A DNA stretch of 64,000 bases. It comes from Kutzneria kofuensis (GTDB lineage Bacteria; Actinomycetota; Actinomycetes; Mycobacteriales; Pseudonocardiaceae). Under the pieces are notes generated by a model, which saw nothing but the letters and a program-made list of their open reading frames with translations, was not told the origin of the DNA and made no database searches. Made by a program: the position numbers and the translations under genes. Location: contig NZ_JACHIR010000001.1 in NCBI RefSeq assembly GCF_014203355.1, positions 3,102,038 through 3,166,037 of the forward strand, in the 5' to 3' direction. Shown piece by piece: positions 20,536 to 60,270 of this stretch. The number at the start of each line of letters is the position of its first letter. The first letter of the stretch is position 1.

Positions 20536-20575
20536 CTTATAACCATCGTGAGAGACGCCTGAGAGCAGTCTGAGA
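20536..20575 (-). promoter_or_regulatory. sigE promoter with three 11-bp-spaced TCTCAG half-sites
   Basis: Reading toward sigE: TCTCAG (20575-20570), N5, TCTCAG (20564-20559), N5, TCTCAC (20553-20548), 6 nt, then TATAAG (20541-20536). The middle half-site occupies the -35 place with a 17-nt spacer. This is the layout of an OmpR-type activator site, and the same half-site occurs around 60182-60270. Confidence 0.6.
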
Positions 20576-20620
20576 ATGCTCCGATGCGGGTTGTTCACCC
20601 AGAACGGCCCTCCACGCCGC

Positions 20621-20626
20621 TAACCT
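20621..20626 (+). promoter_or_regulatory. -10 of leaderless O-methyltransferase mRNA
   Basis: TAACCT followed by 8 nt and GTG at 20635. Confidence 0.4.
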
Positions 20627-20634
20627 CGCACCTT

Positions 20635-21252
20635 GTGACGCTCCGGGAGTACGTGGACGGCTACGCCGTCGAGGACGAGGTCACCTCGGCCGCGCGGGCC
20701 CGGGGGCTCGAGCTGGGCTGTGTGCCCATCGGCGTCACCGGCGGGGCCGCGCTGCGCTTCCTCGCCGCGTCCCTGCAGGCCAAGGCGGTCGTGGAGATCG
20801 GGACCGGGGCCGGCGTGAGCGGCCTGTGGCTGCTCGGCGGGATGGCCCGCGACGGCGTCCTGACCTCGATCGACGTGGAGCCGGAGCACCAGCGGGTGGC
20901 CCGGCGGGCCTTCACCGACGCCCGGATCGGCCCCGGCCGCACCCGGCTGATCATGGGGCAGGCCCTGGACGTGCTGCCCCGGCTCACCGACGGCGGCTAC
21001 GACCTGGTGTTCGTGGACGCCGCCAAGCAGGAGTACCCGAGCTACCTGGAGCACGGGGTGCGGATGCTGCGGCCCGGCGGCGTCATCGCGTTCGACAACG
21101 TCTTCTGGAAGGGCAAGGTCGCCGATCCCGCGGAGCGGGACGCGGAGACGCAGGCCATCCGGGAGACCAACCGGGCCGTCCGGGAGGACGACCGGCTGGT
21201 GTCGATCATGCTCCCGGTCGGCGACGGCCTGCTCGTGGCGGCCAAGCGCTGA
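20635..21252 (+). CDS. SAM-dependent O-methyltransferase, Rv1220 type
   Basis: 205 aa, catechol-OMT-like (methyltransferase family 3). SAM motif VVEIGTGAGVSGLWLLGG, acidic residue in TSIDVEPEH, and DLVFVDAAKQEYPSYLEHGVRMLRPGGVIAFDNVFWKGKV with the metal-binding D and DN. GTG 20635 is preferred to ATG 20584 because of the -10 placed 8 nt ahead and because homologues begin about 30 residues before GAALRFLA. Divergent from sigE, as Rv1220c is from Rv1221. Substrate unknown. Confidence 0.82.
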   Translation: MTLREYVDGYAVEDEVTSAARARGLELGCVPIGVTGGAALRFLAASLQAKAVVEIGTGAGVSGLWLLGGMARDGVLTSIDVEPEHQRVARRAFTDARIGPGRTRLIMGQALDVLPRLTDGGYDLVFVDAAKQEYPSYLEHGVRMLRPGGVIAFDNVFWKGKVADPAERDAETQAIRETNRAVREDDRLVSIMLPVGDGLLVAAKR

Positions 21253-21265
21253 CCTGGCGGTTGCC

Positions 21266-22483
21266 CTACTCCGCCCGAGCGCCCTTGCCCAGCACCACGA
21301 CGCCGCTGGCGCTGACGGTGTAGTGCTCGAGGTCGTGCCCGCGGTCCACGCCGATCATCGCCCCGTCGGCGACGACCACGTTCTTGTCCAGGATCGCCCG
21401 CCGCACCACGGCACCCTTGCCGACCCGCACGCCCGGCAGCAGCACGCTGCCCTCGACGGTCGCGCCGGACTCCACCACCACGTCCGAGCTGACCACGGAC
21501 TCCCGCACCGAGGCGCCGGAGATGATCGACCCGGGGCCGACGATGGACTCCTGCGCCATGCCGGCGTTGACGAACTTGGCCGGCGGCAGCGGCGGCGTCG
21601 CGGTCCGGATCGGCCACGCCTGGTTGTAGAGGTTGAACACCGGGTGCACGGACACCAGGTCCATGTGCGCGTCGTAGTAGGCGTCCAGGGTTCCGACGTC
21701 CCGCCAGTAGCCGCGGTCCCGCTCGGTGGCGCCGGGCACGACGTTGTCGTCGAAGTCGTAGACGTAGGCGCTGCCGGCGTCGACCAGCATGGGGATGATG
21801 TTGCCGCCCATGTCGTGGTCGGAGTCGGGGTCGGCGGCGTCGGTGCGCAGCGCGTCCAGCAGGGCCTCGGTGGTGAACACGTAGTTGCCCATGGACGCGA
21901 ACGTGACGTCCGGGTCGTCGGGCACGTGCGGCGGGTCGGCCGGCTTCTCCAGGAACCGGGTGATCCGGCCCTCGGCGTTGGAGTCGATGCAGCCGAACGC
22001 CTTGGCCTCGGCCCGCGGCACCCGGATGCCGGCGACGGTGACCCCGCAGCCGGACTCGATGTGCTGCTCGACCATCTGGCCGGGGTCCATCCGGTACACG
22101 TGGTCGGCGCCGAACACGACGATGTAGTCGGGCTTCTCGTCGTGCACGAGGTTGAGCGACTGGAAGATCGCGTCGGCGCTGCCGGTGTACCAGCGCGGCC
22201 CGAGCCGCTGCTGCGCCGGCACCGGCGTGATGTATTGACCGAGCACGCTGGACAGCCGCCAGGTGGTCGAGATGTGCCGGTCGAGCGAGTGCGACTTGTA
22301 CTGGGTCAGCACGCACAGCTTGGACATGCCGGCGTTGACCAGGTTGGACAGCACGAAGTCGATAAGTCTGTAGTTGCCGCCGAACGGCACCGCAGGCTTG
22401 GCGCGGTCCGCGGTCAGGGGCCACAACCTTTTGCCCTCGCCGCCGGCCAGCACGATTCCCAGAACGTGGGGCTGCCCCTTCAC
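21266..22483 (-). CDS. glgC: Glucose-1-phosphate adenylyltransferase GlgC
   Basis: 405 aa. Makes ADP-glucose from Glc-1-P and ATP. Nucleotidyltransferase motif [16 protein letters not shown] at 9-24 with KPAVPFGG, then [31 protein letters not shown] and a left-handed beta-helix C-terminus ([23 protein letters not shown]). Leaderless GTG start with TAGGGT 8 nt upstream. Divergent from glgM, which uses its product. Confidence 0.92.
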
Positions 22484-22491
22484 GATCAGTG

Positions 22492-22515
22492 ACCCTATCC
22501 GCCGGGCACTAGGTT
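22492..22515. promoter_or_regulatory. Divergent leaderless promoters glgC/glgM
   Basis: Minus strand TAGGGT (22497-22492), 8 nt before GTG 22483; plus strand TAGGTT (22510-22515), 7 nt before GTG 22523. Unlike the phzF and dap pairs, these -10 elements do not overlap. Confidence 0.5.
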
Positions 22516-22522
22516 GTCAGCT

Positions 22523-23674
22523 GTGCGGATCGGATTACTGACACGCGAGTACCCGCCCGAGGTGTACGGCGGGGCGGGCGTCCACGTCGGATTCCTCGTG
22601 CCACGGCTGCGCGAGCTGGTCGACGTCGACGTGCACTGTTTCGGTGGTGACCGGCCGGATGCGGTCGCGCACCAGCCGGCGCCGAACCTCAGGGACGCCA
22701 ATCCGGCGCTGTCCACGCTGTCGGTCGACCTGGAGATCACGGCCGCGGTGGCGGGCGTGGACCTCGTGCATTCACATACGTGGTACGCCAACTTCGCCGG
22801 TCATCTGGCGAAGGTGCTGCACGGCGTGCCGCACGTGATCACCGCGCACTCGCTGGAGCCGCGGCGGCCGTGGAAGGCCGAGCAGCTCGGCGGCGGCTAC
22901 CGGTTGTCCTCGTGGGTGGAGCGCACGGCGTACGAGGCGGCGGACGCGATCATCGCGGTCAGCGACGGCATGCGGGCCGACGTCCTCGACTGCTACCCGG
23001 CGCTGGATCCGGCCCGAGTGCACGTTGTCCGCAACGGAATCGACACAACGCTCTACGAATCCGTGACCGGCACGGACGCGCTGACCAAGCACGGCATCGA
23101 CCCGTCGAAGCCGATCGTGGCGTTCGTCGGCCGGATCACCCGGCAGAAGGGTGTCGGGCACCTGGTCGCGGCGGCGCACCGGATCACCGAGGACGCGCAG
23201 CTGGTGCTGTGCGCGGGCGCGCCGGACACGCCGGAGATCGCGGCGGAGACGGAGGCGGCCGTCGCCGAGCTGGCCAAGGCGCGGCCGGGCGTGTTCTGGA
23301 TCCAGGAGATGCTGCCGACCGAAGAGGTCAAGCAGGTGCTCAGCCACGCCACGGTGTTCGTCTGCCCGTCGGTGTACGAGCCGCTGGGCATCGTGAACCT
23401 GGAGGCGATGGCCTGCGGCACCGCCGTGGTCGCGTCCGACGTGGGCGGCATCCCGGAGGTCGTGGACGACGGCGTGACCGGGCTGCTGGTGCACTACGAC
23501 GAGGCCGACGTGGAGACGTACCGGAGCGAGCTGGCGGCGGCGATCTCGCGGCTGCTGGCCGATCCGACCCGGGCGGCGGCGATGGGGCAGGCCGGTCGGG
23601 AGCGCGCGGTGCGGGAGTTCTCCTGGGGCGGCGTGGCGGCGCAGACGGTCGAGGTGTACCGCAGTGTGATCTAG
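22523..23674 (+). CDS. glgM: Alpha-maltose-1-phosphate synthase GlgM (GlgA type)
   Basis: 383-aa GT4 glycosyltransferase. It starts VRIGLLTREYPPEVYGGAGVHVGFLVPRLR, the mycobacterial GlgM opening, and has HSHTWYANFAG, VRNGIDTTLY, FVGRITRQKGV and the donor-binding CPSVYEPLGIVNLEAMACGTAVVASDVGGIPEVV. In actinobacteria it joins ADP-glucose to Glc-1-P to give maltose-1-P for GlgE. TTG 22514 is an alternative start, but the -10 and the family favour GTG 22523. Confidence 0.88.
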   Translation: MRIGLLTREYPPEVYGGAGVHVGFLVPRLRELVDVDVHCFGGDRPDAVAHQPAPNLRDANPALSTLSVDLEITAAVAGVDLVHSHTWYANFAGHLAKVLHGVPHVITAHSLEPRRPWKAEQLGGGYRLSSWVERTAYEAADAIIAVSDGMRADVLDCYPALDPARVHVVRNGIDTTLYESVTGTDALTKHGIDPSKPIVAFVGRITRQKGVGHLVAAAHRITEDAQLVLCAGAPDTPEIAAETEAAVAELAKARPGVFWIQEMLPTEEVKQVLSHATVFVCPSVYEPLGIVNLEAMACGTAVVASDVGGIPEVVDDGVTGLLVHYDEADVETYRSELAAAISRLLADPTRAAAMGQAGRERAVREFSWGGVAAQTVEVYRSVI

Positions 23675-23715
23675 GTCACACTTGGTCACGGCAACCCGGG
23701 ACCCCGGCCGGCCAC

Positions 23716-23750
23716 CTATCCCGATAGAGCGACTTTGATCGAGCTATCGG
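23716..23750 (+). promoter_or_regulatory. Candidate operator before the lipoprotein gene
   Basis: Three CTATC half-sites in alternating orientation: CTATC-CC-GATAG at 23716-23727 and CTATC at 23744-23748, the outer pair forming CCGATAG...CTATCGG. It ends against the ribosome site (AGGA, 23751) of the gene at 23758. It could bind the LysR protein encoded downstream or form a leader hairpin. Two GGTCAC direct repeats 10 bp apart lie just upstream (23674-23689). Confidence 0.4.
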
Positions 23751-23757
23751 AGGACCG

Positions 23758-25239
23758 GTGTCACTCACGGTGCACGGGCCTGGGGGCCGTGCCGCGCTCC
23801 TGCTGTCGGTTGCCGCGCTGCTGCTGGGCGTGGCCGGTTGTTCGACGTCCCACGCGGGCAGCGCGAACGAGCCGACCCTGACCGTCGAGGGCAAGCAGGT
23901 CATCGACCCGGCGCGGCTGCAGGCCGAAGGGGAACGCGAGTTGGCCTACACGGTCGGCTTCGGCTACGTGTCGCCGTCCGGCACCGGGCTGCCCCGCTGC
24001 TGGTTCGCCGCGGTCGGACTCTCCGGCCAGGTGGACGGGCGGCTGTGGTGCGGCCCGGTGCAGGTGCCGGGCAGCCCGCCGACCAACGCGTGGGTGCCGA
24101 TCGCGATGAAGAAGACCGGCGAGAACGCGAGCCAGATCCAGCTGGCGGTGCAGCCGCCCGACGTGCCGATCCCGGGCAACCGCAGCACGCCGGTCAGCGA
24201 CACGCTGATCCGCGCCGACGGCACGACCACGAACCCGAAGGCCGTGGTCAACCGCACCGCGAGCGCCAACTTCGTCGCGGTGCTGGCCGACACCGAGCAC
24301 AAGTCGAACGCCGAGCTGGGCCTCACCGACCAGGTGTCCGTCCGGGTGCACGACGACCTGCTCGCGGTGACCGCCACCGGCTACGGCCGGCCGAGCAGCT
24401 TCCCGATCGGCGACGGCGCGACCCTCGTCCCGGGCAAGGACATCGAGCTGCGGGTGCTGCGCCTGCACGTGGACCGTCCCGGCAAGACCGATCCGGCGTT
24501 CGGCGCGCAGCAGTGGGCCGGCTGGCGGCCGCAGCAGTCGACGTTGTCGCTGGTGGTCGAGGGCCGGCGGACCGTGCTGTCGCCGGACCGGCTGCCCGAT
24601 TCCGGCGACGTGTTCCTGATCTACGCCGTGCCGGTGAAGCCGGATCCGGCGAAGTCGCTGGTCCTCGGCAGCGTCGGCGCGAACTCGCTGGAGCAGCAGG
24701 TGGACGTGCCCAGCGGCAAGCGGACCAGCCAGGCGCCGGACGCGCTGCTGACGGCGAGCGGCGTGAGCAAGGTGCCGGCCAACGCCAGCCAGAAGATCAC
24801 CGTCAAGACGGCCGTGCCGTACGGCGGCGTGGCCGCCGGCGACCACGCCGCCGAGCTGGCCGTCACCGGCGTGCGGCTGGGCCGGCAGCGGCCGATCAAG
24901 CTGGACAGCGGCGACTACCAGCTCGTCACCGAGGCGGCCAAGGACAAGGCGCTGCTGGAGGTGGCGATCAAGGCCACCGGTCAGCTCCCGGCGATCATGG
25001 GCGGGCCGGTCACCAGGAACTCCTTCGCGCTGACGCTGCCGGACAACTCCAAGGCCAAGCTGGTCGGCGTCCGCTACGACGGCGATCTGCTGCCGGCCGC
25101 GCTGGTGTTCGAGGTGCCGGCGACCGTGAAGTCGGTGAAGATCGGGGTGAGCACCGGTTCCGTACAGGTCTCCGCCCTCGGCCGGGTGGACCTGACCGCC
25201 ACCGGCGCGCCGATCGACCTGCCCCTGGACTTCGGATGA
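23758..25239 (+). CDS. Large predicted lipoprotein of unknown function
   Basis: 493 aa. Signal peptide with lipobox LGVAGC, Cys28 acylated. The mature part is beta-rich with repeated short domains, two Cys (RCWF, LWCGP) likely disulfide-bonded, and a domain repeated loosely across about 40-210 and 215-400 (strands beginning LTVEGKQVIDPARL and LSLVVEGRRTVLSPDRL). No family recognised. GTG start after AGGACC. It overlaps the LysR gene by 4 nt (ATGA), so regulator and lipoprotein are co-expressed. Confidence 0.7.
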   Translation: MSLTVHGPGGRAALLLSVAALLLGVAGCSTSHAGSANEPTLTVEGKQVIDPARLQAEGERELAYTVGFGYVSPSGTGLPRCWFAAVGLSGQVDGRLWCGPVQVPGSPPTNAWVPIAMKKTGENASQIQLAVQPPDVPIPGNRSTPVSDTLIRADGTTTNPKAVVNRTASANFVAVLADTEHKSNAELGLTDQVSVRVHDDLLAVTATGYGRPSSFPIGDGATLVPGKDIELRVLRLHVDRPGKTDPAFGAQQWAGWRPQQSTLSLVVEGRRTVLSPDRLPDSGDVFLIYAVPVKPDPAKSLVLGSVGANSLEQQVDVPSGKRTSQAPDALLTASGVSKVPANASQKITVKTAVPYGGVAAGDHAAELAVTGVRLGRQRPIKLDSGDYQLVTEAAKDKALLEVAIKATGQLPAIMGGPVTRNSFALTLPDNSKAKLVGVRYDGDLLPAALVFEVPATVKSVKIGVSTGSVQVSALGRVDLTATGAPIDLPLDFG

Positions 25240-26138
25240 CGCACGAGCAGCTGGCCGCGGGCCTGGCCCCCAGGCTCGCGCTGCTGCGGGCGCTCGCCGC
25301 CGAACAGCACGTCACCAGGGCCGCCGACCGGCTCGGCGTGCCGCAGCCGACGGTCAGCCGCTGGCTGGCCGCGCTGAGCGCGGAACTGGGCACGCCGGTG
25401 ATCGTGCGCAACGGGCGCGGCGTGCGGCTGACCCGGGCCGGGCAGATCCTCGCCGAGGCCGCCGAGCAGGCGCTGGGCGTGCTGGAGACGGGCTGCCGGC
25501 GGGCCATCGGCGAGGCGGATCCGGAGCGTGGGCAGGTGGTGCTGGCGTTCCTGCACACCATGGGCGGCGTGCGGGTGCCCGAGTTGCTACGGGCGTTCCG
25601 CGCCCAGCATCCCGAGGTGCGCTTCGCCCTCGAACAGGCCGCGCACGAGGAGATGCTGGCCCGGGTCCGGGCCGGGGACGTCGATCTCGCGCTGACCGCG
25701 CCGCTGCCCGTCGACCAGCCCGACCTGGAGTGCCAGCCGCTGTACGAGCAGCCGCTGCTGCTGACCGTGCCCACCGGGCACCCACTCGCCGGCCGCCGCC
25801 GGGTGCGGCTGGCGGAGCTGGCCGACGAGCAGTTCGTCGGCATGAAGGCCGGCTACGGGCTGCGCCGCATCACCGACGGCCTGTGCGAGCAGGCCGGCTT
25901 CCTGCCCGTGCTGGCGTTCGAGGGCGAGGAGGTCGACACGGTGCGCGGGCTCGTCGCCGCCGGCCTCGGCGTCGCCCTGCTGCCACAGTCCGACACGGCG
26001 TTGAACGGCGTGGTCGAGCTCGCGCTCTCCCCTTCGGCCAGTCGCACCATCGGCCTCGTCTGGTCGGCGGCCGCGCCCCTGCCACCGGCGGCGGAGCTGT
26101 TCCGAGCTTTCGTCAGCGGTAGTTCTGAGCGAACCTGA
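25236..26138 (+). CDS. LysR-family transcriptional regulator
   Basis: 300 aa. N-terminal HTH APRLALLRALAAEQHVTRAADRLGVPQPTVSRWLAALSAELGTPVIVRNGRGVRLTRAG, then the LysR substrate domain (VRVPELLRAFRAQHPEVRFAL, GDVDLALTAPLP, VAAGLGVALLPQS). ATG overlaps the lipoprotein stop. Its end overlaps the convergent pepA by 26 nt. It may regulate this pair from the palindromic site at 23716-23750 (inference); effector unknown. Confidence 0.82.
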   Translation: MTHEQLAAGLAPRLALLRALAAEQHVTRAADRLGVPQPTVSRWLAALSAELGTPVIVRNGRGVRLTRAGQILAEAAEQALGVLETGCRRAIGEADPERGQVVLAFLHTMGGVRVPELLRAFRAQHPEVRFALEQAAHEEMLARVRAGDVDLALTAPLPVDQPDLECQPLYEQPLLLTVPTGHPLAGRRRVRLAELADEQFVGMKAGYGLRRITDGLCEQAGFLPVLAFEGEEVDTVRGLVAAGLGVALLPQSDTALNGVVELALSPSASRTIGLVWSAAAPLPPAAELFRAFVSGSSERT

Positions 26139-27549
26139 CCAAGGTTCGTGCCGCGAAGCCGGTGGCGCCGGGGACGACCTCGTCGTAGGTGGTCTCCGAG
26201 CGGGCCGGGCCGGCGATGTCGAGGTGCGCCCACGGCACGTCGCCCCGGAACTCCCGCAGGAACAGTGCGGCGGCGATCGCGCCGGGACCGCCGGGGGTCT
26301 GCTTGACGTCGGCGATCTCGCTGCGCACGGAGTCGGCGAGGTCCTCCAGCAGCGGCATCCGCCAGTGCGCCTCGCCGACCTGCTCGCCGGCGGTGATCAG
26401 CTGGGCGGCGAGCTCGTCGGAGGTGGCGAACAGGCCGCCGGTGCGCACGCCGAGGGAGACCTTCATCGCGCCGGTGAGGGTGGCGACGTCGACGAGCACG
26501 TCCGGGGAGTGCTTGCGCACGGCCCAGGTCATGGCGTCGGCCAGCACCATGCGGCCCTCGGCGTCGGTGTTGGCGACCTCGGTGGTCTTGCCGCCGTAGT
26601 GCCGCACGACGTCACCGGGCCGGTAGGCGGAGCCGGACACGTGGTTCTCCGCACACGGCACGAGACCGGTGACCCGAAGGGGCAGTTTCAGCGCGGCCAC
26701 CGCAAGCAAGGCGGCGATGACGGCGGCCCCGCCGGCCATGTCGGTGCGCATGAGGTGCATGCCGTCGGCGGGCTTGATCGAGATACCGCCGGTGTCAAAT
26801 GTGATGCCCTTGCCCACGAAAACCAGGTGTGGGGCTTTCGCGGAGCCACGTGGACGCCACGTCAACTCCACGAAGCGCGGCGGCCGGGAGGAACCGCCGC
26901 CGACGGCGAGCACGCCGCCGAAGCCCTGCTCGGCCAGCCACGCCTCGTCCCGCACCTCGGCGGTCAGCCCGGTGACGCCGGCGGCCAGCCGTGCGGCGGT
27001 GCCGACGAGCCAGGCCGGGTCCTTCACGTTGGACGGGGTGTTGGCGAGGTCACGGGTGAGCGCGGTCGCGGCGGCGAGCGTGACGGCCTCCGCGACGGCG
27101 TCGGCGACGGAAGCCGGTGTGACGAGCAGCACGGATTTGGTTCGGGCGGCCGGCGTGTCGCCGGTGACCTTGAACTTGTAGCCGCCCAGCGCCAGGCCCA
27201 GCGCGAAGGCGCCGGCCTGCTCGGCGGTCACGTTCTCGGGCAGCAGCACCTGGTAGCGGCCGACCTCACGCTCGTCGGCCGCCCGGACCAGCGCGGCGCC
27301 GGCGGACCGCCAGTCCCTCGCGGCGCCGTCGCCGACACCGACGAGCCAGTTGCGGCCGATCTGCCGCACCTCGCCGGTCTTGCCGGTCGGCTCGAACGTG
27401 GCCAGCGCGGCGTCGTCGAGACGGTCACGCCCCGGCCCGTAGTCGGGGCCGTCGGCGACCACCACCACGGCGGGGAGGCTGCGGTGCGGGGTCGCGGCGA
27501 CCTCGATCGCGGGCAGCGGGGTGGGCACGGCAGGCGCCGTCGAGCGCAC
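26113..27549 (-). CDS. pepA: Leucyl aminopeptidase (M17)
   Basis: 478-aa cytoplasmic di-metal aminopeptidase. Metal and catalytic residues lie in FVGKGITFDTGG (Lys, Asp), RTDMAGGAAV (Asp) and the signature NTDAEGRMVLADA (Asp, Glu, Arg). The N-terminal domain is the usual hexamer/regulatory region. Normal length. It is not part of the mycobacterial gene order at this place and is convergent with LysR, with a 26-nt 3' overlap. Confidence 0.9.
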   Translation of the reverse strand: MRSTAPAVPTPLPAIEVAATPHRSLPAVVVVADGPDYGPGRDRLDDAALATFEPTGKTGEVRQIGRNWLVGVGDGAARDWRSAGAALVRAADEREVGRYQVLLPENVTAEQAGAFALGLALGGYKFKVTGDTPAARTKSVLLVTPASVADAVAEAVTLAAATALTRDLANTPSNVKDPAWLVGTAARLAAGVTGLTAEVRDEAWLAEQGFGGVLAVGGGSSRPPRFVELTWRPRGSAKAPHLVFVGKGITFDTGGISIKPADGMHLMRTDMAGGAAVIAALLAVAALKLPLRVTGLVPCAENHVSGSAYRPGDVVRHYGGKTTEVANTDAEGRMVLADAMTWAVRKHSPDVLVDVATLTGAMKVSLGVRTGGLFATSDELAAQLITAGEQVGEAHWRMPLLEDLADSVRSEIADVKQTPGGPGAIAAALFLREFRGDVPWAHLDIAGPARSETTYDEVVPGATGFAARTLVRFAQNYR

Positions 27550-27577
27550 GGGAACCTCCAGCAGGGAAACGAATTCT

Positions 27578-27605
27578 GCCCCGGCTCCACGTGGGAAACC
27601 GGGGC
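27578..27605 (-). terminator. Possible terminator after the DUF3117 gene
   Basis: GCCCCGG at 27578-27584 pairs with CCGGGGC at 27599-27605 (14-nt loop), just past the stop at 27629 on the minus strand. Also upstream of pepA, so it could instead lie in the pepA leader. Confidence 0.4.
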
Positions 27606-27628
27606 TGGGAACACACGGGGCGGCAGCG

Positions 27629-27796
27629 TCAGTTCACGACGCCCTTGAGGGCATCGCCCAGTTCGCTCGCCTCCTCCGCCGACATCTCGACGACGAGGCG
27701 CCCACCACCTTCGAGGGGCACCCGCATCACGATGCCTCGCCCCTCCTTGGTGACCTCAAGGGGACCGTCGCCGGTCCTGGGCTTCATGGCCGCCAT
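27629..27796 (-). CDS. DUF3117 protein, Rv1211 type
   Basis: 55 aa: begins MAAMKPRTGDGPLEVTKEG and continues RGIVMRVPLEGGGRLVVEM, nearly identical to the very conserved actinobacterial DUF3117. ATG 27796 is chosen over upstream starts because the family begins there and GGAGGGAG precedes it at good distance. Function unknown; always near tagA/gpgS in this order. The 211 nt upstream (27797-28007) hold no gene. Confidence 0.85.
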   Translation of the reverse strand: MAAMKPRTGDGPLEVTKEGRGIVMRVPLEGGGRLVVEMSAEEASELGDALKGVVN

Positions 27797-28007
27797 AGCG
27801 TGCTCCCTCCATCTGTCCAGCTCGGCCCGACCGCCTCCCAGCCTGTCGGGTCCCGTCCATTCTCCCCCATCCGTCATCGGGCGTGAAACCGAACCGATCT
27901 TTTCGGCCCCACGTCACCGACACCATCTTGGCAAGTCAGGCCCCCTGCCGCCGAGTCGGCACGCCGGTCGGCGGCGGGACGGTCCCGCGCCGGTCCCCTG
28001 TGGACGG

Positions 28008-28559
28008 TCAGCGGCGGGCCCGCCAGCAGGTGGCGACGTGGTCGTCGACCATGCCGGTCGCCTGCATCAGGGCATAGCAGGTGGTCGGGCCGATGAACAC
28101 GAAGCCGAGCTTGCGCAACGCCTTGGCCATCGCCGTCGACTCGGGCGTGACCGCCGGCACGTCGGCCACGGTGCGCGGGCGGCGGCGCCGGCCGGTCGGC
28201 GCGAACGACCACAGCAGCTCGTCCAGCGGCTGGTCCAGACCGGTCACCACACCGGCGTTGCGGACCGCCGCGGTGATCTTCTGCCGGTTGCGCACGATGC
28301 CGGTGTCGGCCATCAGCCGCTCGACGTCGGCCTCGTCGAACGCGGCGACCTTCTTCGGGTCGAAGTGCTCGAACGCGGCCCGGAACGCCTCGCGCTTGCG
28401 CAGGATGGTCAGCCAGGACAGGCCCGACTGGAAGCCCTCCAGGGTGAGCCGCTCGAACATCTCGGGCACACCGCGCAGTTCGACGCCCCACTCCTCGTCG
28501 TGGTAGCGCTGGTAGTCCTCTGTGGAGTCACCCCACGGGCAGCGGACCAGCTCGGTCAC
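28008..28559 (-). CDS. tagA: 3-methyladenine DNA glycosylase I
   Basis: 183 aa. Removes 3-methyladenine from DNA. TagA signature: RCPWGDSTEDYQRYHDEEWG, LEGFQSGLSWLTILRKREAFRAAFEHFD and C-terminal KALRKLGFVFIGPTTCYALMQATGMVDDH with zinc-binding Cys/His. GTG start overlaps the stop of the DivIVA-like gene (GTGA). Upstream sequence in the same phase is a shadow. Confidence 0.9.
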   Translation of the reverse strand: MTELVRCPWGDSTEDYQRYHDEEWGVELRGVPEMFERLTLEGFQSGLSWLTILRKREAFRAAFEHFDPKKVAAFDEADVERLMADTGIVRNRQKITAAVRNAGVVTGLDQPLDELLWSFAPTGRRRRPRTVADVPAVTPESTAMAKALRKLGFVFIGPTTCYALMQATGMVDDHVATCWRARR

Positions 28560-28867
28560 CGCGCGTTCTCCTCCACCGACAGCCGCTCCTCCAGCTCGGC
28601 CACCCGGGCGCGCAGCTCGGTCACCTCGCGGCCGAGCCGGTCCAGTGCCCAGTCGACCTCGGACATCTTGTAGCCGCGGAACACCTGCTGGAACCGCAGG
28701 TCCTGGATGTCCTGCTCGGTGACCGCGTCGGCGGGCAGCCGCGTCGGCGACGCGCCCGGCGGCAGCGGGGCCAGTTCCTCGCCGCGGCCGAAGACCAGCG
28801 ACGCGACCAGGAACACCACGCCGGCCACCACGGCCATCACGACGAGGTAGATGAGTACGGTGGTCAC
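28556..28867 (-). CDS. DivIVA-domain membrane protein, Rv1209 type
   Basis: 103 aa. N-terminal membrane helix (VLIYLVVMAVVAGVVFLVASLVFG), then DLRFQQVFRGYKMSEVDWALDRLGREVTELRARVAELEERL, the DivIVA/Wag31-like motif (F-RGY--EVD-L) and a coiled coil. Probably a small polar-growth or septum-associated protein. Overlaps by 4 nt with both gpgS (upstream) and tagA (downstream), so the run folP2-gpgS-divIVA-like-tagA is one coupled operon. Confidence 0.82.
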   Translation of the reverse strand: MTTVLIYLVVMAVVAGVVFLVASLVFGRGEELAPLPPGASPTRLPADAVTEQDIQDLRFQQVFRGYKMSEVDWALDRLGREVTELRARVAELEERLSVEENAR

Positions 28868-31364: not shown

Positions 31365-31369
31365 CAAAG

Positions 31370-31402: not shown

Positions 31403-31410
31403 GTTCGGCC

Positions 31411-31490: not shown

Positions 31491-31502
31491 TCTGGAGGGC
31501 AA

Positions 31503-33005: not shown

Positions 33006-33012
33006 GAACTCG

Positions 33013-51828: not shown

Positions 51829-52136
51829 TGACACGTGCCCTCCTAGCACAGGGCGGCCGCGACCGGATCAGTCGACGCGCACACCCGGGGACCATAGCGC
51901 GCCACAAGCTACTCGACCTGCGCGCTGTGCCAGGCACCGTAAGAAGAGGAATACCCACGGGTCACTGGTGACACGGCGATCGTGACCAAAGGGTGACACG
52001 GTGACAGCGCGTAGCGATTGAGCAGTTACCGGGCGGGATCGTTCGCTACCCGAACGGGGGAAAAATCTGTCAAGAGTTGAAATCGGCAGGTCGCGCCGAG
52101 TCGCCCGAATTAACAGCAATTAACAACACGAACGGG
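51829..52136. other. 308-nt gap upstream of the peptide importer
   Basis: No gene. Carries the candidate promoter and direct repeats described at 51967-52073 and a comparatively AT-rich stretch at 52080-52130 near the lpqW-like stop. Confidence 0.55.
51967..52073 (-). promoter_or_regulatory. Peptide importer promoter with GTGAC direct repeats
   Basis: Minus strand: TTGACA (52073-52068), 19-nt spacer, TAGCGA (52048-52043). Downstream, on the plus strand, GTGAC recurs in GGTGACAC 51967, CGTGACCA 51981, GGTGACAC 51992 and GGTGACAG 52000; the middle two are 11 bp apart, as in response-regulator sites. Being downstream of the start they would repress. Confidence 0.4.
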
Positions 52137-53885
52137 TCACCGACGAACTGCTCGGCGCCACGTCGGCGCGCCGGCAAAGGGTCCGACCAAGGGTGGCCCG
52201 CCGTTCACACCAGTGATCTCGGAACCGGTCGCGAGGACATCGGCGAGTTGGAACAACGGCATCGCGACATGGTGTTGCCACAACGCCGGCTCAACCGTCG
52301 ACAGCGCGTCCGGCAGTGACATCGCGCCGGTCAGGGCCGCTTCGATGGTCGGCTGCAGGCCGGGGTCGCAGAACCCGGCCGGGTTGGCCGCCGGCAGCGC
52401 CGTCGTGCCGTCCGGCAGCGCGCCCCGGCAGCCGAACGCCGCCGCCAGCACGCTGGCCGGGTCACCCCCCACCGCCTGCGGGACGATCGCGACATCCACC
52501 GAATTGACGGGGTCGCCGCCCTGGTCGTTGGCCGGGGAGGTGGTGGTGGTCACGGTCGGCGTCGTGGTCGTGGTGGCCGGCAGAACCTGCCCGAACAGCT
52601 GGTCGCCGGAGGTGTTGAGGATCGTCGCGCCGATGCCGGCCGCCTCCAGCTGCTGCTGCAGCACGCCGGCCAGCTGTGAATAGGGGGCACGGTCGTTCGG
52701 CGCGCCGATCACGAGGTTGAGTGGCACGCCGTCACGGATCCACGAGCCGTTGGTCTTCGTGTAACCCGCCTGGGTGAGCAGCTGATTCACCAGGTCGTGG
52801 TTGGGCGTGCCCACGCCGGCCGGTATCGACGGCTTGTAGCCCGGCTGCGACGGGGCCAGCACCAGCGAGTCGGCGCGCAGCGAAGCCGACGGGCCGCCGC
52901 CCGAGCCGATGGAGATCAGGGCGTCCCGGTCGATCGCCGCGAACACCGCGGCGCGCAGCGTCGGGTCGGACAGCCGTGGGGCGGTCTGCCGCAGCAGCAC
53001 CTCCACCACGACCGGATTGGGCACCGTGGTCAACGTGACCGACTTGCCCAGTTCGTTGAGCGCGCGCATCGTGCTGTCGCCCGGGTCGAGCACGGCCAGC
53101 TGGTCGTCGGCCGACTTGAGCGCGCCGACCAGGTCGGCCGGCCCGGCCTGGCGCAGCACGATCTGCTGCAGCTTGGTCGACTGGCCCCAGTAGCGGTCGT
53201 TGCGCTGCAACAGGATCTCGCCGCGGTCCTGGTCGATGTTGCGGATGGAGAAGGGCCCGCCGGCGGCGGGGAACGTCTCGCTGAGCGCGCCGGTCCAGCC
53301 GCCGGGCGCGTCCTTGAGCACGTGCGCCGGCAACAGGTCGTTGAACAGCGACCGCCAGCCCGGATAGGGCTGGCTGAAGGTCACGTCCGCGACGCGGCCG
53401 CCGTCGCGCGCCGACACGCCCGTGATGAGGCGGTAGCCGGCCGGGTCGACCACGCCGGGCTGGCTGCGCATGTTCTGCCACAGGTAGGCGAAGTCCTCGG
53501 CGGCGATCGGCGCGCCGTCACCCCAGGCCGCCTGCGGCTGGATGGTGTACGTGACCGTGTACGGATTGGCCTTGGTGACCTCGGCCGACACCATCAGCGT
53601 CCGGTCCAGCAGCGGGCTGCCGTCGACCCCGGTGTGGAAAACCGAGGGGAGCACGAGTTCGCCGAGCGCGCGGGTGACGGTGGTCTGGTTGGCGATCAGG
53701 TGCGGGTTGTAGCCGCCCTTCACGCTGTCCACACCGACCACCAGCTGGGTCGGATCCGTGGGACGCGTCGGCGTTACGGTGGTCGGTGGGGCGCTGACCA
53801 GCGGAGGCGGCGGCGAATCCGTGCACGCCGTCAGCAGCGCGCAGACCGCCGCCGTAAGGGCGAGCAGCGCCGACCTGCCGCGCAC
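52137..53885 (-). CDS. lpqW: LpqW-like lipoprotein
   Basis: 582 aa. Lipobox LLTAC, Cys21, a Pro/Thr linker, then an SBP family 5 fold (LLDRTLMVSAEVTKANPYTVTYTIQPQAAWGDGAPIAAEDFAYLWQ) interrupted near 440-470 by a Thr-rich insert (TTTTTPTVTTTTSPAND). It has no own permease and sits next to typA, as Rv1166 does; LpqW steers phosphatidylinositol mannoside/lipomannan synthesis in mycobacteria. Same role here is inference. GTG start. Confidence 0.75.
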   Translation of the reverse strand: MRGRSALLALTAAVCALLTACTDSPPPPLVSAPPTTVTPTRPTDPTQLVVGVDSVKGGYNPHLIANQTTVTRALGELVLPSVFHTGVDGSPLLDRTLMVSAEVTKANPYTVTYTIQPQAAWGDGAPIAAEDFAYLWQNMRSQPGVVDPAGYRLITGVSARDGGRVADVTFSQPYPGWRSLFNDLLPAHVLKDAPGGWTGALSETFPAAGGPFSIRNIDQDRGEILLQRNDRYWGQSTKLQQIVLRQAGPADLVGALKSADDQLAVLDPGDSTMRALNELGKSVTLTTVPNPVVVEVLLRQTAPRLSDPTLRAAVFAAIDRDALISIGSGGGPSASLRADSLVLAPSQPGYKPSIPAGVGTPNHDLVNQLLTQAGYTKTNGSWIRDGVPLNLVIGAPNDRAPYSQLAGVLQQQLEAAGIGATILNTSGDQLFGQVLPATTTTTPTVTTTTSPANDQGGDPVNSVDVAIVPQAVGGDPASVLAAAFGCRGALPDGTTALPAANPAGFCDPGLQPTIEAALTGAMSLPDALSTVEPALWQHHVAMPLFQLADVLATGSEITGVNGGPPLVGPFAGAPTWRRAVRR

Positions 53886-53921
53886 GAATCCGCCTCCAAG
53901 TGTCTGCGACCGGGGCGAAGC

Positions 53922-53971
53922 CCCGTGTGGTCCACAGCCGGGCTTCCGCCGTCAACTATGGACCACACGGG
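53922..53971 (-). terminator. Stem-loop between typA and lpqW
   Basis: Perfect 13-bp stem (53922-53934 with 53959-53971) and 24-nt loop, downstream of typA on the minus strand and upstream of the lpqW-like start. Probably the typA terminator. Confidence 0.6.
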
Positions 53972-54002
53972 TGAATAGACGTGTGCGGGGTACTGCGGGT
54001 TG

Positions 54003-55904
<1,902 letters not shown>

Positions 55905-56007
55905 GCGAAACTCCTAGAGCGTTGCGAGTGGGAGGTGGGCACCGGCGGCCGTCCATACCCGCGCGTGTCCCCAACCATCGTACCTTTTCCGGGCCGCGGG
56001 TTCCGAC

Positions 56008-56029
56008 TTAGGCGAGCCTCACCTATCCT
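56008..56029 (+). promoter_or_regulatory. Probable DtxR/IdeR iron box overlapping a -10
   Basis: TTAGGCGAGCCTCACCTAT (56008-56026) matches 15 of 19 positions of the iron-box consensus (TTAGGTTAGSCTAACCTAA). The -10 TATCCT (56024-56029) overlaps its right end, and TTCCGA 17 nt further up can serve as -35, so a bound repressor would block the promoter. Confidence 0.55.
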
Positions 56030-56049
56030 GGTCGGAGTCGAGGACGGGA

Positions 56050-56160
56050 GTGCGCCGGGTGGGCAAGGTCAAGGTGAAGAAGAAGTGCTGCCGGTCCAAG
56101 CCGAGGTGCAAGCGCTGCCCGGTGGTCGCCCTGCTCAAGGCCAAGAAGAAGGCCGCGTGA
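56050..56160 (+). CDS. 36-aa basic Cys-rich protein
   Basis: GTG 56050 follows GAGGA by 5 nt. The protein is MRRVGKVKVKKKCCRSKPRC... ending in an Ala/Lys tail: 36 aa, about 15 Lys/Arg and four Cys arranged CC-x5-C-x2-C (residues 13, 14, 20, 23). The pattern suggests a metal site or nucleic-acid/ribosome binding. It has promoter, ribosome site and a hairpin-T4 terminator (56161-56177) of its own. I believe similar short proteins occur in other actinobacteria, but cannot check. Confidence 0.7.
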   Translation: MRRVGKVKVKKKCCRSKPRCKRCPVVALLKAKKKAA

Positions 56161-56177
56161 CGCGGATCTCCACCGCG
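56161..56177 (+). terminator. Terminator of the 36-aa gene
   Basis: CGCGG/CCGCG stem with 7-nt loop directly after the stop codon, followed by CTTTTC. Confidence 0.5.
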
Positions 56178-56250
56178 CTTTTCGATCTTGTTCCGCATCG
56201 TCGCCGACGGTCGTACTAGGCGTTTCCCTAGTGACAGGCTTCACACCTGA

Positions 56251-57126
56251 TCAGTGCGTGGCTGCGATCACCTTCACGTCGTAGAAGACGCCGTTGTGGT
56301 CGGGAAAGACCAGCGCACCCGTCGCGTCCACCATCTTCCACAGGACATGGCACACGCCGACGGCCATCGGCGTCACCGGCACGCTCACGGCGACCATCTG
56401 GCCGGGCTCGGCGTCGGGCACCGGCACCCGCGACGGCGAGACGCACTGCATGGTGGTGCCGCCGGCGATGTCCAGGAACCGGCCGTGCCACGGCACCGTG
56501 CCGGTGTTCTTGATCCGCCACACCTTCGTGAAGGTCTGCCCCAGCGGCACCTGCGAGCCGTCCGGGTACGTCATGTCGCCGGACAGGCCGTCGCCGCCGA
56601 AGCCGGAGGCGTCGCCGGGCAGCGGGTACGGGTCGTGGGATCCCCAGGACGGCAAGTGCCGGAACAGGCGCGGCGCCAGCACGGCGGCGGCCACGAGCAC
56701 CACCACCGCGGCGATCGCGAGAACCGCCCGGCGGGCCTTGTTCTTCGGAGCAGGCGGTTCCGCTACGGCCTTTTCTTCTTCCCGTACAAGGACATTCGAC
56801 TGCTTCGACGCTTCGGCGAGTTCGGCGTTGGCCGTCTCCCAACGGAACCGCCACTCCCGGCGGACGTCGTCACCGGGACCGGCGAGACTGCGCACGAACT
56901 CCCAGGTGGTCTCCCAGGACGGCAGCACGCGGCCGCGGGTGGCCGCCGACAAGGTGGATTTCGACGCCGCCGCACCGAGTTCGGCGCGCATCCGGTCATA
57001 GGACGGGTTCCCGGCGAGTTCCTTGAGCTCCAGGAGGTCGCGGGCGAAGCGGGCCGCCGGACCGTCGCCGGCGTCGGGAACGATGTGCTTGCGCCCTCGT
57101 CGAGCCTGATTCTGAGGACCGGTCAC
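56251..57126 (-). CDS. XRE-like HTH, membrane and NBR1-Ig domain protein
   Basis: 291 aa. Cytoplasmic N-terminal helix-turn-helix-like part (FARDLLELKELAGNPSYDRMRAELGAAASKSTLSAATRGRVLPSWETTWEFVRSLAG), one membrane helix (AVLAIAAVVVLVAAAVLAPRLF, about 135-156) and an outer NBR1-like Ig domain (QTFTKVWRIKNTGTVPWHGRFL, PGQMVAVSVPVTP, FYDVKVI). This looks like a transmembrane DNA-binding sensor. GTG 57126 is 6 nt after TATATT; an in-frame TTG at 57159 lies in the -35. Confidence 0.72.
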   Translation of the reverse strand: MTGPQNQARRGRKHIVPDAGDGPAARFARDLLELKELAGNPSYDRMRAELGAAASKSTLSAATRGRVLPSWETTWEFVRSLAGPGDDVRREWRFRWETANAELAEASKQSNVLVREEEKAVAEPPAPKNKARRAVLAIAAVVVLVAAAVLAPRLFRHLPSWGSHDPYPLPGDASGFGGDGLSGDMTYPDGSQVPLGQTFTKVWRIKNTGTVPWHGRFLDIAGGTTMQCVSPSRVPVPDAEPGQMVAVSVPVTPMAVGVCHVLWKMVDATGALVFPDHNGVFYDVKVIAATH

Positions 57127-57132
57127 GACGGG

Positions 57133-57159
57133 AATATAAACCACCCGGGGGTATGTCAA
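57133..57159 (-). promoter_or_regulatory. Strong leaderless promoter of the XRE/NBR1 gene
   Basis: Minus strand TTGACA (57159-57154), 15-nt spacer, TATATT (57138-57133), then 6 nt to GTG 57126. Shorter than ideal spacing, but both boxes are near consensus. Confidence 0.55.
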
Positions 57160-57180
57160 CGATGCGTGACGGGACGTGCG

Positions 57181-57214
57181 AGGCGGGTGACCCCTCCCCC
57201 GGGGTCACCCGCCT
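57181..57214 (-). terminator. Terminator of the 114-aa secreted protein gene
   Basis: Perfect 14-bp stem (57181-57194 with 57201-57214), 6-nt C-rich loop, downstream of the stop at 57241 on the minus strand. Confidence 0.75.
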
Positions 57215-57240
57215 TTCACCTCAGACGGCGCAGTCCCGCG

Positions 57241-57585
57241 TCAGAGGCTGCAGCCCTTCTGGATACGGACGACGGTCTCGTCGACACCGATGTCGAACTT
57301 CTTCTTGCCCGAGGTGCCGCCGTTGGTGACCATGCAGTAGACGGACAGGCGGTCGTCCTGGTCCTTCGTGACGATCCCGGCCGACACCTTGTGCGAGCAG
57401 TGGTTGTTGAAGTAGACGGTCACCGTGGTGAAACCGTCGCCCCACGAGTAGTTCGCCTTCGCGTCACTGGGCGAGGTGCACTTGATGCTCGCGCGGTGCG
57501 TGTCCGCCATCGCGGCCGGAGCGGCTGCGGCCATCAGGCCCAGACCCAGCGCGGAAGTGACAACAGCGGCAATTGCCTTGTTCAT
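57241..57585 (-). CDS. Small secreted protein, possible disulfide-bonded beta fold
   Basis: 114 aa. Signal peptide cleaved near AMA-DTH (residue 27). Mature part has four Cys (KCTS, NHCSH, VYCMV, KGCSL) and alternating hydrophobic strands. No family recognised. ATG with GAGGGGAA upstream. Monocistronic: own terminator and about 120 nt of non-coding sequence upstream (57586-57706). Confidence 0.68.
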   Translation of the reverse strand: MNKAIAAVVTSALGLGLMAAAAPAAMADTHRASIKCTSPSDAKANYSWGDGFTTVTVYFNNHCSHKVSAGIVTKDQDDRLSVYCMVTNGGTSGKKKFDIGVDETVVRIQKGCSL

Positions 57586-57706
57586 GTTTTCCCCTCATGA
57601 CATGACCGGGACTCCGGTGCACACATCACAGCCCGGCGGCCGCATCCGGTTCAAGCCGGAAATGTGCGAAGTCTCGTTCGCGCAGGTCAGGGAATTGTTC
57701 GGCGGT

Positions 57707-58096
57707 CTAGCCGAACAGTTTCCGAAGGTCCGGAAGGAACGCCAGGTCGGCTTCGAGCCACGGCAGGTCGTCGAATTCCTCGATGCCGACCCACCTCACC
57801 GCGCTGTGCTCGACCGCCACCGGCTCCGCGTTGTCGTCGACAAGTGTGGCCGTATAGAGCCGCAGCACCATTCCATTCCGCAGCGGCACATCCGGCCCGA
57901 CACTCGGCCCGGCTTCGACCTCCACACCCAGTTCTTCACGGCATTCCCTGACGACCGCCGCTTCTTCGGACTCGCCGGGCTCGACGCGTCCGCCGGGGAA
58001 TTCCCACCGGCCGGCGTCGGCGCTGGGATACGCCCGCTGCTGGGCCAGCACCTGCCCGTTCCGCATGATCGCGGTGGCGACGACAATCTGGGTCAC
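57707..58096 (-). CDS. Nudix hydrolase, MutT type
   Basis: 129 aa. Nudix box [26 protein letters not shown] (G-x5-E-x7-REUxEExGU) is complete; flanking WEFPGG and the C-terminal [20 protein letters not shown] resemble MutT/CTP pyrophosphohydrolases. Cleans oxidised nucleotides or cleaves NTPs. GTG 58096, 2 nt after the kinase stop, so it is the last gene of the regulator operon. Confidence 0.83.
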
Positions 58097-58098
58097 AC

Positions 58099-59451
58099 TC
58101 AGATCCTGCCCCACATCGCCAGCCCGGCCGCCTGCCACCGCACCTCGAACCGCGCACCGCCCTCCGGCGAGTCCGTCACGCGCACGGTGCCGCCGCGCCG
58201 CCGCACGGCCTCCGCCACCAGCGCCAGCCCCAGCCCCGCGCCGCCGGTGCCCCGGCCACGGTCGTCCTGCACGCGGTAGAAGCGGTCGAACAGCCGGGTG
58301 CGGTGCTCCACCGGCACGCCGGGGCCGTCATCGTCGACGAGAAGCCGCACAGTCGCGCCCGCCGGCAGCACGGACACCCGCACCTGCACACGTGCGTAGC
58401 GGATGGCGTTGTTGAGCAGGTTGTTCAGCACGAGCGCCACTTCGCCGGGGGCGCACAGCACCACCGCGCCGGCGCGCGGGGCGTCCACCCGGATGCGAGG
58501 GCCGCCGTTGGTTGACAGGCGCTCCGCCGCGGCGATCGCCGCCTCGCTCACGTCGACACGGCCCACCGGCTGCGCTTCTCCGGCGTCGGATCGCGCCAGC
58601 GCCAACAGATCGTCCACGAGAGTCGACATGCGCTCCGACTCGTCCGTGACGGCCGCGAGGACCTCCTGCGCGAACTCCGGATCCGGGTGCGCCACCGCGA
58701 CCTCCGCCTGCGCACGGATGGACGCCACCGGCGACCGCAGCTCGTGCGCGGCGTCCCCGGTGAAGCGCCGCAGTCGCTGGACCGCCTCGTCGCGCCGTAC
58801 CAACAGGTCGTTCATCGCCTCCGCCAGCGAGCGCAGCTCGTCGTGCGCCTCCGGCACCGGCAGCCGTTCCCCCGGCGGGAGTGCGCCCGCCGCCGCGTGC
58901 ATGCGCCGTACCGGCCACAGCGACCAGCCGACAACGAACCACGTCGCCACGCCGATCAGCAGCGACGCCAACACCGCCGCGACCGACAGCCAGTCCGCGC
59001 CCTCCCTTACCGCCTGGTTGTAGCCGACGAGGTCGGCGCCGGCCGCGACGAGCCGTGGCAGGCCGGTGGGGTCGTAGACGACCTGGCCGATCCAGCGGTG
59101 CGGCGGGTCGTCGTCGATGCGCAGCACGTCCCGTCCGGACATCAGCGCGTCGACGTCGTGCGGGCTCAGCATCGGCGGCGGGCCGCCGTCGGCCGGAGCG
59201 CCCTCGGAGTCCAGGACGCGCAGCTGCACGTCGACGAGCGCCGAGTGCACCGGCTTGCCCTCGGCCACCGCCGGCACGGCGTCGCCCAGGGCGTTGTGCA
59301 GCTCAGAATCCGCCGCGCCGACCAGCAGCTGCCCGATCGCGCCTCCGGCCAGGCGGGACAGCACCAGCAGGCACACCATCGCGAACAGCGTGGCGGAGAC
59401 GGTGATCTTGGAGCGCAGCGATCGACGCCGCCACCACGCGCGAGGATTCAT
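58099..59451 (-). CDS. Sensor histidine kinase
   Basis: 450 aa. Two membrane helices (about 15-37 and 160-180) bracket an extracytoplasmic sensor of about 120 aa; then HAMP, H-box [20 protein letters not shown]-box [14 protein letters not shown], and G-boxes VDDDGPGVP and [12 protein letters not shown]. Start ATG overlaps the response-regulator stop by 4 nt. Likely reports envelope stress, given the half-sites before sigE and the LolA-ABC genes. Confidence 0.9.
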
Positions 59452-60152
59452 CGACGCAGCGCTGCGTCCAGCTCCGGAGAGCTGGCCATGTAGCCGTGGC
59501 CACGGATCGTCCGCACCACGTCACCCGCGCCCACGGCATCCAGCTTGCGCCGCAGGTAGCCCACGTATACCTCCACCGCGTTGCGGGTGGCCGCCAGCTC
59601 GTCACCCCACACCGTGCGCAGCAGCTCGTCCTTCGTGACGACCGCTCCCGCGCGGCTGGCCAGCACCTCCAACACCGCGAACTCGCGGGGGCTCAGCGCC
59701 ACCGTCTCCCCGGCCCAGCGCACCTCCCGGCCCGCGCGGTCGATCACCAGCTCCCCCACCTTGAGCTGCGCCGCCGCCTCGGCCGACGCACCACGGCGCA
59801 GCACCGCCCGCACCTGCGCCACCAGCACCATGAAGGAGAACGGCTTCACCAGGTAGCCGTCCGCGCCCAGGTCCAGGCCGTCCGCCTGGTCCACCTCGCC
59901 GTCCTTCGCCGACACCAGCAGCACCGGCGTGTCCACCTGCTCCGCGCGCATGTGCTGCAGCACGCGGTAGCCGGACAGGCCCGGCAGCATGATGTCCAGC
60001 AGCACCACGTCGAAGCTGCCGGTCAGCGCCGCCCGCAGGCCGCTCGGGCCGTCCGCCGCGCACACCACGTCCATCCCCTCGGCCGTCAGTCCGCGTTCCA
60101 GCGCCCGACGCACCCCGATCTCGTCGTCGACTACGAGCACCCGTGGTCTCAC
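59448..60152 (-). CDS. OmpR-family response regulator
   Basis: 234 aa. Receiver with VLVVDDE, phospho-Asp in VVLLDIMLPG, Ser in VSAKDG and Lys in LVKPF; C-terminal winged helix (ALSPREFAVLEVLASRAGAVVTKDELLRTVWGDELAATRNAVEVYVGYLRRKL). GTG 60152 is leaderless: CATACT ends 6 nt ahead, with CTGAGA repeats as its -35. MprA- or CseB-like in its predicted targets; orthology not proven. Confidence 0.9.
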   Translation of the reverse strand: MRPRVLVVDDEIGVRRALERGLTAEGMDVVCAADGPSGLRAALTGSFDVVLLDIMLPGLSGYRVLQHMRAEQVDTPVLLVSAKDGEVDQADGLDLGADGYLVKPFSFMVLVAQVRAVLRRGASAEAAAQLKVGELVIDRAGREVRWAGETVALSPREFAVLEVLASRAGAVVTKDELLRTVWGDELAATRNAVEVYVGYLRRKLDAVGAGDVVRTIRGHGYMASSPELDAALRR

Positions 60153-60158
60153 CAGGCC

Positions 60159-60198
60159 AGTATGGCCACGGCGAAGGCCGCTCTCAGGCATCTCTCAG
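60159..60198 (-). promoter_or_regulatory. Response-regulator promoter with TCTCAG pair
   Basis: Minus strand: CTGAGA (60198-60193), N5, CTGAGA (60187-60182), 17 nt, CATACT (60164-60159), 6 nt, GTG 60152. The inner half-site fills the -35 position, so the regulator probably controls its own gene. Confidence 0.6.
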
Positions 60199-60234
60199 CA
60201 GCTCGGTCCGTCGGCCGGCGCGATGCGGCCCCCG

Positions 60235-60270
60235 TCTCAGCGTTCTCTCAGCTCCTCAGCCCGGTCTCAG
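60235..60270 (+). promoter_or_regulatory. TCTCAG half-site cluster before the LolA-like gene
   Basis: TCTCAG at 60235 and 60246 (11 apart), then CCTCAG at 60254 and TCTCAG at 60265 (11 apart). Two OmpR-type tandem sites 19 bp apart facing the LolA-like gene. The -10 is unclear (TTCACC at 60277-60282 has the right spacing but poor match). Confidence 0.55.

Follow-up and report, generated by a model that had tools for sequence, protein, structure and literature searches.

In PhoB-type class II activation, a direct-repeat operator takes the place of the -35 element, and the operator's lower edge lies some 10 nt upstream of the -10; in Streptomyces, the CseBC two-component system acts on an extracytoplasmic function (ECF) sigma factor named sigE. 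Here we describe a direct-repeat word, TCTCAG-N5-TCTCAG, in a 64,000-nt stretch of Kutzneria kofuensis DNA (RefSeq assembly GCF_014203355.1, contig NZ_JACHIR010000001.1, positions 3,102,038 to 3,166,037; hereafter the window), where it stands ahead of the ECF sigma factor gene sigE and between a response regulator (RR) gene and the divergent gene of a LolA-like exported protein. MprA acts on sigE and sigB in mycobacteria (PMC4867592, PMC10027907, PMC11173970) and on sigE, sigB and htrA in Corynebacterium glutamicum, where its motif is TKTTAAGAAM (PMC12113857); in Mycobacterium tuberculosis, phosphorylated MprA reportedly turns P1 of sigE off and P2 on (PMC11173970). In the crystal structure of DNA-bound PhoP, the base-reading residues are N212, V213, E215, S216, Y217 and Y220, and a water molecule links S216 with base three of TCACAGC (PMC4832192).

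We consider it probable that two old envelope-stress systems share one operator code in this genome, with MprA acting at mprA, pepD and sigE, and the window RR acting at its own gene and the LolA unit. Like the mycobacterial MprAB-sigE/sigB/pepD network, Kutzneria has a boxed mprA, a boxed PepD-like HtrA and a boxed sigE whose operator is followed by a SigE-type promoter; the likeness at sigB consists of a one-mismatch site at a sigB-like gene in its own genome, or an exact site in one relative (G005). Unlike in that network, two regulators apparently share the operator word here. The arrangement also resembles that of M. tuberculosis PhoP, with a direct repeat, a tandem dimer, an 11-bp period (7-bp motif, 4-bp spacer) and matching N, E, Y and Y base contacts; PhoP reads TCACAGC with V213 and S216, and here TCTCAG goes with A and V in the equivalent positions (PMC4832192). 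Among the literature matches listed for MprA with TCTCAG or CTCAG, no motif paper was recognised. The window RR (162.2 bits) and the genome's MprA (202 bits) both differ from CseB, scoring below the cut-off of 350 of its NCBIfam model (NF041733).

The TCTCAG word in Kutzneria and related genomes

An earlier sequence-only reading of the window had listed TCTCAG half-sites at three promoters, and a coordinate check bore them out. On the plus strand, TCTCAG starts at 60182, 60193, 60235, 60246 and 60265, with one mismatch (CCTCAG) at 60254; on the minus strand ahead of sigE, TCTCAG occupies 20570-20575 and 20559-20564, followed by TCTCAC at 20548-20553. The 10.4-Mb host genome (G000), which that reading had proposed to scan, was searched for the exact 17-mer, with the reversed pattern as control. 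The scan returned six exact sites and no control match, against 0.40 sites expected genome-wide from the base composition of the window (P of six or more, 4e-6). Three exact sites were present in the window, against 0.0025 expected, a post hoc figure. All six genomic sites stood outside genes or at gene starts: two at RR/lolA, one at sigE, one at the MprA-like RR gene (L006), one at an HtrA/PepD-like protease gene (L005) and one in a gap by a DUF998 gene (L001). The sites at 60182 and L006 overlap the longest RR reading frame, yet lie above the probable start. The word points toward sigE and lolA and away from the RR gene.

The same search in 20 genomes of the family (f1, which we take to be Pseudonocardiaceae) gave 62 exact sites and two control matches. 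When these sites were assigned by hand, from position and a reading of the loci, 51 of the 62 fell at sigE (16), RR/lolA (17), mprA (10), pepD (7) or a sigB-like gene (1), and the other 11 lay elsewhere.

Two candidate targets were set aside. The sigB-like gene of the host genome is a weak candidate, having one mismatch and no -10 at 10 nt; the exact site at such a gene comes from one other genome, G005. The exact DUF998-adjacent site (C1:2518375) is directed away from the gene and has no -10 pattern, and it was rejected as a target promoter. This box (L001 1501-1517, G000:C1:2518375; L087) is also kept exactly in G142 and faces a hairpin about 110 nt further on, so that it may possibly serve a small or antisense RNA. 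Additionally, an exact box adjoins an emb-type arabinosyltransferase gene (PF04602) in two genera, reversed relative to the gene (L107 1501, L095 1501).

Promoter geometry and base-reading residues

The boxes stood at set distances from a -10 hexamer. At mprA, two half-sites were followed after 10 nt by xAxACT in 34 of 35 rows (30 from the family, 5 from outside), and at the pepD-like gene two half-sites were followed after 10 nt by CA[CGA]AGT in 7/7. The sigE operator (20537..20575, minus strand) consists of four half-sites in 11-bp steps, the last of them decayed to TTATAA (20537-20542), and 10 nt below this fourth half-site lies the upstream -10 hexamer GACAGT (20521..20526, minus strand), with A2 and T6 in 40/40 loci. 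The fourth half-site itself carries A as its fifth base in 40/40 and reads CCTCAC in 8. At lolA, an exact distal box (60235..60251) and a proximal box with one mismatch (CCTCAG-N5-TCTCAG, 60254..60270) precede the -10 hexamer CAAGCT (60282..60287; all plus strand) by 11 nt from the last half-site, with A2 and T6 in 30/30 loci; the steps from box to box were 19, 29-30, 39, 58 or 95 bp. On the RR side, the exact box at 60182..60198 (plus strand, reversed relative to the RR gene) has its closest half-site 17 nt from the -10 hexamer CATACT (60159..60164, minus strand). This RR-proximal box is limited to part of the genus (5/7 same-genus loci, L022-L028); across 30 loci, CAT..T lay 17 nt away in the 5 with an extra box of this kind, 28-29 nt away in 24, and was not found in 1. 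The conserved CATACT and the coding sequence make a leaderless RR start at GTG 60152 likely.

These spacings support the earlier proposal of an OmpR-type direct-repeat operator common to the RR/LolA intergenic region and sigE, at a fixed distance from the RR's own -10. The accompanying claim, that at the RR and sigE promoters a half-site fills the -35 position with a 17-nt spacer, held at the RR, with CATACT; at sigE the conserved -10 is GACAGT, and the TATAA formerly taken as the -10 is the register of the decayed fourth half-site. A direct repeat at a fixed distance above the -10 agrees with the site spacing of OmpR/PhoB class II promoters, and 10-11 nt is the spacing at which PhoB-type activators replace the -35; PhoB-type systems differ from the boxes here in word and in envelope targets. 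We suggest that a phosphorylated dimer would lie head-to-tail on two half-sites and, because its lower edge would fall 10-11 nt upstream of the -10, would replace the -35 and recruit sigma-A polymerase, the sites presumably acting by activation and not repression. At sigE, the four half-sites would drive a first promoter, with a SigE-type (ECF) promoter, GGAAC-N17-CGTT (20490..20515, minus strand; present in 30/30 sigE loci scanned, out of the 40), just below it, comparable to the mycobacterial P1/P2 scheme. This element presumably belongs to SigE, whose consensus it resembles, and is probably a second, autoregulatory sigE promoter.

The window RR (59448..60152, minus strand; Response_reg and Trans_reg_C domains) shares 41% identity with the genome's MprA. 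In a midpoint-rooted tree of 32 rows (4 of the 36 chosen were missing, and some open forks and long-branch warnings remained), it fell on a branch separate from MprA (split 100/99), and the LolA-linked RRs of the family and of other families grouped apart from MprA. The helices were aligned to PhoP by their common N, E, Y, Y, R, R pattern, and at the PhoP contact positions the window RR and MprA both have N, A, E, V, Y and Y. The change from S to V in the helix coincides with that from A to T at the third base of the word, which is a fit and not proof. Because the two regulators agree at these base-contact positions, both probably read TCTCAG, and the 17-mer may be the word of OmpR/PhoB-type RRs with the recognition helix N-x-[VL]-E-V-Y-[VI]-G-Y-L-R-R-K. 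The helix of the neighbouring RR was read in 15/20 LolA loci of other families. Among the other RRs of the host genome that were read, three, with helices VEVYVSALRRK, VELYISYLRKK and VETYVYYLRRK, lacked a box at up to two mismatches; a second MprA-like RR (NSLDVYIGYLRRK) had a one-mismatch site in reverse.

Which regulator acts at which promoter

The sigE box and MprA were followed in 40 family genomes, picked to cover many genera and deliberately including LolA-negative ones; an RR orthologue was counted as missing if its best match was worse than E 1e-75. All 40 genomes had the box, the first two sigE half-sites being exact in 34, with one mismatch in 4 and with two in 2. The RR orthologue was not found in 13 of the 40, and the box was still exact in 10 of these 13, compared with 24 of the 27 genomes with the RR (Fisher 0.37). 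An MprA orthologue was found in 40/40, and the box at its own promoter was exact in 28 and had one mismatch in 5; it was also exact in 3/3 genomes of another family, f8. The Kutzneria MprA orthologue (G000:C1:3453847) lies 290 kb from the window RR, carries its own exact box, shares 81-84% identity with its f8 matches and has the boxed PepD-like HtrA protease about 10 kb off; we take it to be MprA. Outside the family, 26 sigE loci held no exact box anywhere in the locus, and any one-mismatch match occurred in only 3 (L248, L251, L259). Because the box is kept in the 13 RR-less genomes and MprA is present in all 40, the sigE box is most likely an inherited MprA target, and MprA would bind ahead of mprA, pepD and sigE. 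Since its reading residues equal those of MprA, the window RR may possibly act at sigE too; shared base-contact residues likewise make some overlap of the two regulators at sigE likely.

The LolA box, in turn, followed the RR. LolA homologues were found in 269/297 family genomes and in 160/298 genomes of an order-wide sample. The region upstream of lolA was read in 94 family genomes (the 30 best-scoring, 14 chosen via the RR, 4 more, 18 of genus g5, 20 for further genera, G154 and G138, and 6 without the RR), and 84 of these had a box within one mismatch. The box occurred in 81/85 genomes with the RR (adjoining LolA or found by genome search), compared with 1/7 in which a search for the RR failed to find it (Fisher 2e-6); for genus g5 alone, the figures were 16/19 with the RR and 0/5 without (P 0.0013). 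When rechecked by tblastn, the loci chosen via the RR and those of g5 had the RR and LolA in their expected places, and the six RR-less loci had no RR next to LolA. In other families, 19/20 LolA loci had a box within two mismatches, 12 of them within one, where the density in the window scan predicts about 1.4. Since LolA homologues and the box thus occur beyond the family, the LolA unit is not the new target it had been proposed to be. We read the LolA part as a conserved regulon under the neighbouring two-component system; neither it nor the LolA-ABC unit was described in the literature searched, which covered titles and abstract openings, with subscription papers mostly outside coverage. 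The window RR would bind the divergent RR/LolA promoter and so control itself and the LolA-ABC unit on an envelope signal; our guess for the cargo is a lipid or lipoprotein exported from the stressed envelope.

Individual loci varied around this arrangement. At L171, L175 and L176 (genus g25), no LolA was found, a short gene that appears pterin-dehydratase-like by eye lies by the RR, and the boxes are kept. In G168 (L274 1216-2100), a transposase-like gene (by eye) separates the RR gene from LolA, with the boxes still on the side of LolA; in G030, about 1.2 kb separates the two genes, with a box on both sides. The second half-site reads TCACAG in 11/19 of the LolA boxes outside the family (L223-L241), halfway to the PhoP word.

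The sequence-only reading had seen one regulon here, in which the window RR, as a rebuilt MprAB/CseBC circuit, is the only regulator of its own gene, the LolA unit and sigE. An identical word at all three promoters, RR reading residues identical to those of MprA, and the linkage of lolA and sigE in several genomes, at about 38-53 kb on a single contig, all speak for it, as does the third sigE half-site, which is exactly TCTCAC in 18/27 genomes with the RR and 2/13 without (P 0.006). By genus, this last difference is not significant (13/20 vs 2/7, P 0.19), and we rejected it as a mark of the window RR. A single regulator of this kind appears unlikely, for the sigE box persists within two mismatches in 13/13 RR-less genomes and is about equally conserved without the RR, an MprA orthologue with its own exact box is present, and the window RR lies on another branch and falls short of the CseB model. 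Of the one regulon, the RR/LolA operator and the word shared with sigE stand; the attribution of sigE to this RR is not supported, MprA being likelier. The converse, in which MprA alone reads every box and the neighbouring RR has a different site, would suit the occurrence of MprA in all 40 family genomes searched and, in most of them, of this word ahead of mprA itself. We regard this too as improbable: G005 has MprA and exact mprA, sigE and pepD boxes, yet its RR-less LolA has no box, and three genomes with the RR in which LolA was not found retain boxes beside the RR. Similarly, a LolA box within two mismatches occurs in 11 genomes from other families that gave no MprA match at E 1e-85, a strict limit that a weaker MprA relative could escape; G321, a congener of G308 (one of the 11), does have an MprA match.

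Chance or promoter composition, with no regulator involved, deserves very little credence, even though one- and two-mismatch matches stay at chance level by some measures. Within two mismatches, the window held 6 matches against 3.36 in shuffles, and 15/100 shuffles reached 6; within one mismatch, the genome held 18 sites against 4 for the reversed control and about 18.8 expected by base composition. Near-exact matches being at about chance level, only exact or conservation-backed sites carry weight, and a wider regulon drawn from one-mismatch sites of the host genome was rejected. The exact sites exceed their reversed controls, the distance to the -10 is fixed, and across tens of genera the half-sites are conserved and the spacers little. 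The strict MprA limit weighs against the reading of two systems with one code, as do further observations. Related by descent, the genomes give counts that overstate independence. The C. glutamicum MprA motif, TKTTAAGAAM, differs from the TCTCAG word (PMC12113857), and the sigE spacing resembles P1 activation, unlike the P1 switch-off reported for phosphorylated MprA in M. tuberculosis, so that activation of P1 here is not certain (PMC11173970). The mprA box is degenerate (2-3 mismatches) in 7/40 genomes, and an RR of the host genome with another helix (L008, VESYISYLRRK) has a one-mismatch site upstream. At LolA, the six RR-less, boxless loci come from just two genera, and G004, G211, G264 and G188 have the RR and LolA without a box at one mismatch or fewer. 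G138 has two exact LolA boxes and no RR found, in an 87% complete draft whose LolA contig begins 1 kb upstream; in G112 and G268, two genomes outside the RR searches, a LolA box is present and LolA faces a MarR-like gene; and in G048 the RR was not found, its LolA upstream region lying outside the 94 read.

The code that both systems apparently share is the point of interest, since the sigE part itself most likely represents the known MprA circuit. For the MprA/sigE envelope-stress circuit of the family, an operator word at a set distance from the -10 is now available, a clean paralogous two-component pair that seemingly uses the same DNA word makes insulation versus cross-talk testable, and a conserved LolA-ABC unit is marked as part of envelope-stress biology. 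A broader version, which we put forward tentatively and hold to be rather doubtful, is that Actinobacteria of this order carry a LolA-linked envelope two-component system apart from MprAB with the same code, and that both might converge on the four-half-site sigE array as a two-input switch.

Genes and other features of the window

The sensor histidine kinase gene of the two-component system (58099..59451, minus strand; HisKA, HATPase_c) adjoins the RR gene. On the other side lie the genes of the LolA/MucB-RseB-like exported protein (60325..61422), an ABC transporter ATPase (61416..62387; PF00005, start inferred) and an ABC-2 type permease (62384..63253; PF12679), all on the plus strand. The exported protein scored 24.1 bits against PF03888 (cut-off 22.3), 20.3 bits against TIGR00547 (cut-off 112) and 27.4 bits against NF053572 (cut-off 100), and its profile matched PDB LolA chains at E 0.00076; judged by these matches, it is only remotely LolA-like. 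Its nearest named relative was in Kutzneria sp. CA-103260 (85%), and another named locus was that of Amycolatopsis arida. A consensus promoter scan of 59400-63300 found none, the window held no tRNA and no Rfam match, and a search of the operator against plasmids gave no match.

The sigE gene (19842..20444, minus strand) likely starts at ATG 20444, which has GGAGG upstream; its longest open reading frame starts at 20546, above the -10. The protein scored 356.4 bits against the mycobacterial-type SigE model NF007229 (cut-off 265). Downstream on the same strand follow an rseA-like zinc-finger anti-sigma factor gene (19225..19845; PF13490, and 60.8 bits against the RseA model NF041468, under its cut-off of 165) and an htrA-like serine protease gene with a PDZ domain (17643..19196; Pfam Trypsin_2/PDZ, and 440 bits against NF050055, under its cut-off of 800). 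This sigE-rseA-htrA order is, we presume, the mycobacterial one. An O-methyltransferase gene is divergent from sigE. A small gene at 17247-17633 had no Pfam match and appears TatB-like by eye only. Elsewhere in the window, a 302-aa protein (56254-57159, minus strand) carries an NBR1-type Ig-like domain at its C terminus (PF16158, E 9e-16).

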